Assembly: GCF_002896855.1 (NCBI RefSeq)
Contig: NZ_CP021850.1
Span: forward strand, 273,665 to 337,664
DNA from: Clostridium thermosuccinogenes
GTDB taxonomy: Bacteria; Bacillota; Clostridia; Acetivibrionales; DSM-5807
Length of the DNA stretch: 64,000 nt
Direction of reading: 5' to 3'
The notes under the pieces were generated by a model, which searched no databases, was not told the origin of the DNA, and saw only the letters and a program-made list of their open reading frames with translations. The first letter of the stretch is position 1. The number at the start of each line of letters is the position of its first letter. Below, in pieces: positions 865 to 7,971 of the stretch. The position numbers were made by a program, and so were the translations under genes.

Positions 865-1848
865 ATGAAAGGTATCATATTAGCCGGTGGTAGCGGAACG
901 CGCCTCTACCCACTTACAAAAGTAACATCAAAGCAATTGCTGCCTGTGTACGACAAGCCAATGATTTACTACCCTATGAGCATATTAATGGAAGCAGAGA
1001 TCCAGGATATATTAATCATATCCACGCCTGAAGATACACCAAGATTTGAGGAATTGCTGGGTGACGGAAGCCAGTTTGGCATAAACTTGTCCTATGCAGT
1101 GCAGCCTTCACCGGACGGCTTGGCTCAGGCCTTTATCATAGGAGAGGATTTCATAGGTTCTGATTCTGTAGCAATGATTTTGGGAGACAATATATTCCAC
1201 GGTCATGGATTGAAAAAGCGTCTGGTGGCAGCAGCGAACAAGAGGACAGGAGCGACCATATTCGGATATTATGTAGATGATCCGGAACGTTTTGGGGTAG
1301 TGGAGTTTGATGAGGAAGGCAGAGCTATATCTATTGAGGAGAAACCAAAAGTGCCAAAATCCAATTATGCAGTAACCGGCCTTTATTTCTATGATAACCG
1401 GGTGGTGGAATATGCAAAGAGCCTTAAACCTTCTGCCCGTGGAGAGTTGGAGATTACCGATTTAAACCGCATTTACCTGGAGGCTGGCGAGCTGGATGTA
1501 ATACTTTTGGGACAGGGCTTTACCTGGCTGGATACCGGAACCCACGAATCCCTTGCAGATGCGACCAATTTTGTAAGGGAAATTGAGACCCACTCCCATC
1601 GAAAGATAGCATGCCTGGAGGAAATCGCTTACCTAAATGGTTGGATTACTAAAGAACAGGTAATGGAAGCGTATGAGGAGTATAAAAAGAATCAGTATGG
1701 GCAGTATCTAAAAGATGTAGTGGATGGTAAGTTTATTGACAAGAATTTAATGTATAATAAATACTTACGTGCTGTATATAGAAAAGAGAGGAAGAAGTAT
1801 GAAAGCTATAAAAACAGAATTGGAGGAAGTATTAGTAATAGAGCTTGA
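865..1848 (+). CDS. rfbA: Glucose-1-phosphate thymidylyltransferase
   Basis: RfbA/RmlA makes dTDP-glucose from dTTP and glucose-1-phosphate, the first step to dTDP-L-rhamnose. The N-terminus [16 protein letters not shown] is the nucleotide-binding signature GGSGTRL, followed by [19 protein letters not shown] and [20 protein letters not shown] are also classic. ATG 865 is preferred over the in-frame GTG at 856 because AGGTGAT (854-860) sits just upstream of it. At 327 residues it is about 30 longer than most RmlA proteins, and the last 50 nt overlap rfbC, so the C-terminal tail may be a read-through product of a lost stop or small indel. First gene of rfbACBD. Confidence 0.95.
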
Positions 1849-4665: not shown

Positions 4666-4694
4666 TTGACAGTAACTCTTGAATAATATACAAT
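4666..4694 (+). promoter_or_regulatory. Strong sigma-A promoter of the tandem-repeat RNA
   Basis: TTGACA (4666-4671), a 17-nt spacer, then TACAAT (4689-4694): a near-consensus housekeeping promoter, with transcription expected from about 4701. The preceding 290 nt after rfbD (4379-4665) are AT-rich and show no gene. The only thing downstream before a terminator is the two-copy repeat, so the promoter appears dedicated to a short RNA. Confidence 0.75.
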
Positions 4695-4710
4695 CTAATT
4701 GTCAAATATT

Positions 4711-4802
4711 TGTCGCTACTCGATATGCGACTAATAAGAGGTCGAGTTCAAATGATTGTCGCTACTCGATATGCGACTAATAAAAGGTCGAGTTCAAATG
4801 AT
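4711..4802 (+). repeat. Two tandem copies of a 46-bp repeat
   Basis: Copy 1 is 4711-4756 and copy 2 is 4757-4802, differing at one base (TAAGAGG versus TAAAAGG). Both begin TGTCGCTACTCGATATGCGA and end GTCGAGTTCAAATGAT. There are no spacers between the copies, so this is not a CRISPR array. The conserved paired segments are listed under the overlapping RNA entry. Confidence 0.95.
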
Positions 4803-4805
4803 TTG

Positions 4806-4840
4806 AAAGCTCTATCCTTAATTGGATAGGGCTTTTGTTT
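4806..4840 (+). terminator. Rho-independent terminator after the repeat RNA
   Basis: AAAGCTCTATCC (4806-4817) pairs with GGATAGGGCTTT (4824-4835) through a six-base loop and is followed by TGTTT. It ends the repeat RNA. In type III toxin-antitoxin loci a leaky terminator occupies exactly this place. Confidence 0.85.
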
Positions 4841-5743
4841 AATTTTGAGCCATCTATAAAACCACTGCTGTCCTGGATGTATGCAAATATGAACCCTATG
4901 CCGTATATACACTTAAATTCTCTGATAAATAGCGGTACAAGAACCACCGGCTATTCGCGCGCGTCCTTATCGGCTCTTATTTATGGACCTGTTGATTTGC
5001 CCGAAGCGGAACCACCGGTACGGAAAAGCTTTTTGCTTAAAGCCACGGGTATAGCGGTACTGCAAAATGATAACTTAAGGGTGACTCTTAAGTTTACTGG
5101 TGACGGGGGAGGCCATGATCACAATGATAAAAATTCCATCGAGGTTTATGCTTATGACCAATTAATAAGCTATGATGTTGGTACCACAGGCTATGGCATC
5201 GCTTTTACCAAGGAATGGAGTCGTTCTTCTATTGCCCATAATATGGTTTGCATTAATGGCCGGCCGCAAAAAAGATCCAAAGCGAGTGTATTGAATTATG
5301 ATGGCAAAAGCGTATGTGCGCAAGCAAGCGATGCTTATGAAGGGGTGTGTCTTGAGCGCAGTATTTTATTAGAAGAGGAAAGCGGATTCAAGGATATATA
5401 TGGAGTAAGGTGTGCCAGTGAGTCACAGATTGATTGGGTTTTTCATTGCAAGGGGCAGGTGGAAACGGATTTGCCTTTGGTGGATAAGGAACCCTTTACA
5501 GAAGGAAATGGATACGACCAGTTATTTGACCTGAAGCATACATATTTTGATGGTGAATTTGCTGTGAGTTTTTTGCATGAAGGTTATAGGCTTGATATGC
5601 ATTTTGAAGGAGAAAAAGGTACCGAAGTCATTATTGGCAAATGCTATGGGGCAGATAGGACCGATATTTTGTCTTTTATAATGCTGAGACGGAAAAGAAA
5701 AGAGACAGTATTTTCACAGCAAACATACATTACTAAACAATAA
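4835..5743 (+). pseudogene. Heparinase II/III-family polysaccharide lyase, C-terminal remnant
   Basis: About 300 residues match the C-terminal beta-sheet domain of heparinase II/III-like lyases. The signature is GGGHDHNDKNSIEVYAYD followed by YDVGTTGYG and SSIAHNMVCINGRPQ, which hold the conserved histidines. Intact family members exceed 600 residues and begin with an alpha/alpha toroid domain that is missing. The frame opens on a TTG at the very end of the preceding terminator with no ribosome binding site, so this is a 5'-truncated gene joined to foreign sequence. It points to a lost glycosaminoglycan or acidic-polysaccharide degradation locus. Confidence 0.8.
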
Positions 5744-7180: not shown

Positions 7181-7971
7181 ATGAACATCTATACCTTAAA
7201 AGAAAAAAGATTCAGTTGGATGATTCCTGGGATGTGATAGTGATAGGAGGTGGCCCTGCGGGCTGTACGGCTGCAGCAGCAGCTGCGCGGGAAGGTTCAA
7301 GGACACTTTTGATAGAGGCTACAGGATGTCTGGGTGGCATGGGTACCTCGGGTTTAGTGCCTGTCTTTTGTCCGTTTTCGGATAAAGAAAAGATTATTTA
7401 TAGAGGTCTTGCTGAAAAGGTACTGAATGAAATGAAAAAGGGAATGGCTCATGTCGATGATAAGAAGCTGGATTGGGTTCCAATTGATTGTGAGCTTTTA
7501 AAACGCATTTATGATGACATGGTAGTGGGAAGTGGTGCACAGGTCCTGTTCAATACATTTTTAAGTGCGGTTGACACTGATGGGCAGGGCAATGACAAAA
7601 TAGGTCCCGGAGCTCCGCCTGTTAAAACAGAAAAAGGATGGCTTACCACCTTTCATGCGGTAGATTTGGATCCCAGCAGGGGAAAGAACGGTTGGGAGTC
7701 TGCATGGAAGAAAAGATACTGTGCCGGTATAATGCTTCTGGATCTGGAGGATCCTTCCAAGGTGATAGGATTATGCAAAGATCCTCTTATTGCTCCTGAA
7801 ACAGACTATGAAACTGTAGATGGATTCAGAACTAATGTAATATTCCCAGGGGGAATGATTCTGGAAGATGACGGAGAGGTCAAGATATATTACGGTGCTG
7901 CAGATACTGTAGAATGTCTTGCCACAGCCCATGTTGATGATTTGATTAAGCTGTGCAAGCCTGTTGGATAG
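7181..7971 (+). pseudogene. Chimeric, frameshifted FAD-oxidoreductase/GH130 gene
   Basis: The first part resembles the neighbouring FAD oxidoreductase (DVIVIGGGPAGCTAAAAAA, then TGCLGGMGTSGLVPVF), but after about residue 122 counted from 7216 the sequence becomes the C-terminal half of a glycoside hydrolase family 130 phosphorylase: KIGPGAPPVKTEKGWLTTFH, LLDLEDPSKVIG and IYYGAADTVECLATAHVDDL. The junction is near 7575-7600 and is in frame. ATG 7181 has a GGGGG site but enters the wrong frame; a one-base change in the A-rich run at 7199-7209 would give the natural start. Two lesions make a functional product unlikely. GH130 enzymes phosphorolyse beta-mannosides. Confidence 0.75.

Follow-up and report, generated by a model that had tools for sequence, protein, structure and literature searches.

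The window, by which we mean the whole 64-kb stretch of DNA that was analyzed, carries on its forward strand a compact element made up of a promoter-like site, two tandem repeats and an intrinsic terminator, and the terminator is immediately followed by an open reading frame (ORF) that encodes only the C-terminal portion of a heparinase II/III-like protein (table 1). The two copies of the repeat GTCGCTACTCGATATGCGACTAATAARAGGTCGAGTTCAAATGAT, at 4712-4756 and 4758-4802 (+), are spaced by 46 nt, where shuffled sequences give an expectation of 0; they differ at one loop position (G/A) and slightly also in the 5' flank, and the array occurs only once in the 4.73-Mb genome. Two terminator-like sites were observed in the region, with 0.1 expected. 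The -10 box and the leader are similar to their counterparts in the intact cptIN loci L027, L015, and L034, and transcription would be expected to start near 4701. The RNA from 4699 to 4845 is predicted to fold much more stably than its shuffles (z = -4.46), even by a program that is unable to form pseudoknots. The near-consensus promoter, the pair of 46-nt tandem repeats and the strong terminator of the original prediction were all recovered in this analysis.

Elsewhere in the window, a C-terminal fragment of a Mutator-family transposase (37-360) lies upstream of dTDP-rhamnose genes, and in the segment 8145-13069 an SF1 helicase clusters with a protein of unknown family, a small protein and an M78 peptidase, with PDC-M69A (weak) and PDC-M69B as PADLOC candidates; this cluster is a possible defense island.

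Table 1. Features of the element in the window and the toxin-less units in viral records (positions without a locus name refer to the window).
Feature	Position	Strand	Basis or remark
Promoter-like site TTGACA-17-TACAAT (predicted)	4666..4694	+	Consensus scan, 11/12 matches
CptI unit 1	4705..4750	+	46 nt between predicted cleavage sites
Unit 1, S1	4712-4716/4727-4731	+	
Unit 1, S2	4719-4723/4742-4746	+	
Unit 1, L2	4732-4741	+	
CptI unit 2	4751..4796	+	46 nt
Unit 2, S1	4758-4762/4773-4777	+	
Unit 2, S2	4765-4769/4788-4792	+	
Unit 2, L2	4778-4787	+	
Intrinsic terminator	4804..4837	+	14 pairs, T-rich tail; position as in intact cptIN loci
Heparinase II/III-like C-terminal ORF	4835..5743	+	PF07940; not part of the antitoxin
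Junction, end of homology to intact cptIN loci	4838..4850	+	Comparison with L027, L015, L038, and L041
CptI unit, then ToxI-like unit GGAGAGTCCCTACCATATAGTGGGAAACTTTAAACTC within about 15 nt	L017:7616-7720		IMG/VR
CptI unit, then ToxI-like unit as in L017	L020:3264-3368		IMG/VR
ToxI-like unit a few nt before CptI unit	L019:10990-11084	+	S2 CCCAG/CTGGG
ToxI-like unit a few nt before CptI unit	L021:1429-1520	-	S2 CCCAG/CTGGG
CptI unit	L016:5322-5375	-	S2 CCAGA/TCTGG; viral contig of 117 kb
CptI unit	L018:675-728	-	S2 CCAGA/TCTGG; viral contig of 83 kb

Each repeat is predicted to fold as an H-type pseudoknot in which stems S1 and S2 are combined with a short L1 and an A-rich L2. The stems named in the original prediction are present in both units: S1 is GTCGC/GCGAC and S2 is CTCGA/TCGAG, extendable to ACTCGA/TCGAGT, and all ten pairs can form in each. 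In an alignment (A1) of 33 distinct CptI units, the five pairs of S1 and the five of S2 are formed in 99.1% of cells; when the stems were slid along A1 as a control, only 18-39% were paired. Two-sided changes occur at 8/10 pairs and amount to 28 cells versus 4.6 in shuffles; 0/500 shuffles reached as high a value, a count that is not a probability since the shuffle preserves the make-up of the columns and not the relatedness of the units. The S2 variants among the units include CTCGA/TCGAG, CCTGA/TCAGG, CCAGA/TCTGG, and CCCAG/CTGGG, and those of S1 GTCGC/GCGAC and GTTGC/GCAAC. In the CptI of Eubacterium rectale (CptI_Er), the A29U substitution in L2 abolishes activity, as does the deletion of U30 (PMC4627078); the equivalent of A29 (column 32 of A1, window position 4734) is invariant in 33/33 units, and that of U30 is a T in both window units.

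The original prediction had assigned the element to the type III layout and, within it, had placed it closest to CptI by repeat length and copy number. The CptI_Er repeat, read from a published primer (PMC4627078), aligns with the window unit without a gap in the stems, in the loop or at the 3' end. The E. rectale CptIN system (PDB 4RMO) and the window have in common two tandem units of 45-46 nt, an H-type pseudoknot with a very short L1 and an A-rich L2 of 10 nt, a similar 3' cleavage context and an intrinsic terminator after the repeats; the window differs in the absence of cptN, in an L1 of 2 nt instead of 1, in a 5' single-stranded part that is one nt longer and in stems that have diverged through paired changes. 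ToxIN and TenpIN have the same type III organization, a repeat RNA followed by a terminator and a toxin gene, with units that are pseudoknots, but ToxI units have 34-36 nt and another sequence, whereas the window unit has 46 nt and aligns with CptI, and ToxN (PF13958) is absent from the genome.

The pattern of stem 1 and its loop was scanned through viral and genome collections, and a covariance model was run through 391 genomes of the class. The arrangement that recurs is usually two units, a terminator and, within tens of nucleotides, an ORF of ~160 aa. In 13 other bacterial loci a full-length CptN frame directly follows the repeats and terminator, and the same order is found on L015 and L024, two contigs that are viral or proviral. 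The ORFs of these two belong to NCBIfam NF047359, "type III toxin-antitoxin system CptIN family toxin" (205 and 218 bits; cut-off 90), and the L015 protein matches the crystallized E. rectale CptN (PDB 4RMO) with E = 1.5e-22. Window unit 2 has a 43-nt core that recurs unchanged in unit 2 of L027, a locus whose CptN frame has one stop, and with 1 difference in unit 2 of L015, where CptN is intact. The search that the original prediction had called for, repeats followed by a toxin gene in related genomes, thus finds a CptN-family gene in many of them, and neither of the outcomes it had set beforehand as telling against it, a toxin downstream nowhere and stems broken by covariation, is what the homologues display.

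Because homologous repeats precede CptN genes, the units align with CptI_Er and both stems covary, the element is, judged from its sequence, the CptI antitoxin RNA of a CptIN locus. The same three lines of evidence contradict the idea that the likeness to CptI is accidental and the element an unrelated small regulatory RNA or repeat: CptN follows the homologues, the ten paired positions covary and the alignment to CptI_Er is gapless. For such a coincidence, which we consider extremely improbable, one could cite the lack of a toxin downstream and of a significant Rfam match (the best had E = 0.46 and was due to the terminator). A BLAST comparison of the repeats with isolated phages and plasmids gave no real match.

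That the toxin gene is missing, and that a heparinase fragment stands at the terminator in its place, had also been part of the original prediction, and both points stand. A CptN profile built from nine CptN proteins has no match in the window; NF047359 has none in the entire 4.73-Mb genome, in a search that placed six other genomes and two viral records above the cut-off, and a direct protein search of the genome for CptN was likewise empty. After the terminator, intact loci continue with a ribosome-binding site and the CptN start, for example TTTAAGGAGATATCTATGGAACATGGA in L038; at the junction, the window has neither cptN nor its ribosome-binding site, and the exact breakpoint would lie somewhere within the junction interval of table 1. 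The homologues of the heparinase-like ORF in relatives lie in longer open frames, from about 400 to 1166 aa. A little farther downstream, ORF 7216-7971 is an in-frame fusion of the N-terminal 125 aa of an FAD oxidoreductase with the C-terminus of a GH130 phosphorylase; this is consistent with a second scar, left by deletions in the same patch. Because both scars are still open frames, the sequence suggests that the losses were recent. So abrupt a junction, with a second chimeric ORF 2.4 kb away, might also be produced by an error of assembly that had removed the toxin from the record. We hold this to be highly improbable: the genome is a single 4.73-Mb contig from which CptN is absent throughout, and CptI without toxin is found in other genomes as well.

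As the genome has no CptN, the window RNA currently lacks a partner, and the simplest view is that it is a relic. Our best explanation, to which we give a probability of about 0.85, is that this orphan RNA is the antitoxin half of a CptIN locus that was left after the deletion of cptN and that has kept its specificity. The deletion would have taken out cptN, so that the terminator now abuts the 3' end of the heparinase gene. From its own promoter the element would give a two-unit transcript of about 140 nt, with each unit folded as a CptI pseudoknot. Should a cognate CptN endoribonuclease enter the cell, it would cut this transcript after TTCA into 46-nt units, which would then hold the enzyme inactive in a CptI-CptN complex; the relic, still with its original specificity, could act passively as an anti-addiction RNA.

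Several published properties of the family bear on this scheme. CptN processes the precursor of its antitoxin to units of 45 nt and is itself held in a 2:2 ring, a single CptI unit with a few flanking nucleotides is fully antitoxic, and there is no cross-protection between CptIN systems whose toxins are 35-44% identical (PMC4627078, PMC5086642). Both window units are flanked on each side by cleavage context, with the sites themselves placed by alignment to CptI_Er. Because there are two full units with this context on both sides, the window RNA should neutralize a CptN closely related to those found beside near-identical units, such as that of L015. The window RNA may neutralize a toxin encoded elsewhere, as had been proposed; since its own genome has no CptN, the target would need to be brought in by a mobile element or phage, and the high specificity of CptI antitoxins (PMC4627078) would confine any protection to a narrow range.

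How frequently such loci lose their toxin was estimated from a census of bacterial loci found by the RNA alone, from which duplicates and one chance match were removed (n=24, the window included). An antitoxin is not safely lost ahead of its toxin, and by this logic of toxin-antitoxin (TA) systems an antitoxin RNA that outlives its toxin is to be expected. A full CptN frame is present in 13/24 loci, and in one more (L035) the frame is open as far as the sequence reaches. The toxin is damaged in 5/24: the CptN frames of L027 and L039 have one stop each, that of L034 has had its C-terminus replaced, and in L028 (Herbivorax) and L042 (Anaerotignum) only the ~33 first codons remain. No toxin adjoins the repeats in the remaining 5/24, which are the window, L030, L047, L050, and L051; genome-wide searches detected no CptN anywhere in the genomes of L030, L050, and L051, and the genome of L047 has one CptN at a different locus. 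Toxin loss at CptI loci thus appears to be common (10/24 damaged or absent, in a sample with several draft metagenome assemblies in which some stops may be errors).

Two of the census loci, the toxin-less L030 and the toxin-bearing L035, have a common leader of about 80 nt before the repeats (TTAAGTGAGGTCGGAAA...CGCCGCCCATCCGCTTAAC). L051 (G131:C161), at about 1500-1555 (-), is a single CptI-like unit with a terminator, located between a tail- or baseplate-like gene and one for a 207-aa protein that has no clear family, and its S2 is the same as in the viral loci L019 and L021. Discarded from the collection were L003, L004 and weaker similarity matches, which reflect chance likeness to promoter- or terminator-like sequence and not repeats, and L040, L022, and L023, which match the pattern by chance.

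The perfect retention of the units, promoter and terminator could alternatively mean that the RNA is still under selection. It would then serve as an anti-addiction or immunity RNA that neutralizes the CptN of incoming plasmids, integrative elements or prophages and thereby allows the cell to lose or tolerate these. The recurrence of toxin-less CptI units in other genomes (L030, L050, and L051) and the travel of CptIN loci with viruses or proviruses (contigs L015 and L024) agree with such a role, and in other TA types chromosomal antitoxins do act as anti-addiction modules (PMC12548467). The neighboring scars, however, are still open frames, so the loss is perhaps too recent for decay to have set in, and antitoxins are specific to their toxins. 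On balance we consider both maintenance by selection and the immunity that it would confer to be unlikely, although far from negligible, and prefer to see the element as a relic of toxin loss.

Toxin-less CptI units also occur in viruses, where six records of 9-122 kb (L016 to L021) have one unit each and a search for CptN and ToxN found neither in these records, which may be incomplete. The units lie in tRNA-bearing or otherwise noncoding stretches, and phage genes accompany them on the contigs of L017 (terminase, head maturation protease, and exonuclease) and L019 (DnaB helicase and Erf). In 4/6 records the CptI unit adjoins a ToxI-like unit, in an order that is reversed in L019 and L021 relative to L017 (table 1). 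L017 and L020 share identical sequence at the CptI unit, 43 nt of which are identical to window unit 2, and their ToxI-like unit matches the ToxI repeats of real ToxIN loci (L009, L014, and L067, the last a contig with a complete ToxIN locus). The L017 cassette gave only matches of chance length to isolated phages. Near their CptI units, L016 and L018 have a further common element, AGTACCTATCACGCTTACAATAAGTAGCGTACCAAGATAGGT, that is probably structured, and the L016 unit adjoins a tRNA-Leu. A 138-kb viral record has a single ToxI-like unit (L066:2989-3014, -) and no ToxN in the record.

Such units raise the question of whether the orphan itself might be a solitary antitoxin mimic of the phage type, left by a virus with no resident cptIN locus behind it. 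Toxin-less solitary units on viral contigs and the identity of the 43-nt core of window unit 2 with the L017 unit would accord with this origin. Nonetheless, the window has two tandem units with their own promoter and with the kind of terminator that intact bacterial cptIN loci have. The viral units, by contrast, are single and, in their tRNA-bearing or noncoding surroundings, lack that terminator; the neighbors of the orphan, moreover, are metabolic or rhamnose-synthesis genes and not phage genes. A viral origin is accordingly very unlikely, and the deletion of cptN from a resident locus remains our preferred history.

The viral units are more surprising than the chromosomal orphan. They are candidate natural RNA decoys against type III defense, and the cassette of L017 and L020 is a candidate bivalent antitoxin decoy; neither natural CptI mimics nor CptI and ToxI units that adjoin each other are described in the open-license papers searched. 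The nearest parallel, chiefly to L016-L021, is the pseudo-ToxI of PhiTE, also a toxin-less type III antitoxin copy outside a TA locus, which in the wild type has 1.5 out-of-phase repeats with no complete unit and is active only after expansion (PMC3475682); the window differs from it by two complete CptI units and a chromosomal location. Solitary viral CRISPR repeats, which are RNA anti-CRISPRs (PMC10651486), follow the same logic of mimicking an RNA partner, but with another target and another RNA. One might speculate that toxin-less type III antitoxin RNAs form a recurrent functional class, with multisystem decoys in viruses and immunity RNAs against CptN in chromosomes, a generalization that we put forward only tentatively and think rather doubtful. 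The side-by-side CptI and ToxI-like units of the viruses nevertheless make RNA mimicry of type III defense directly testable.

The chromosomal orphan is an addition to the known CptI family and most likely a relic of toxin loss. It shows that a type III system can persist as its RNA half after the toxin has gone, for which the survey supplies a frequency (in 10/24 bacterial CptI loci the toxin is damaged or absent), and it is a natural orphan of exactly known sequence on which an anti-addiction role of such relics can be examined.
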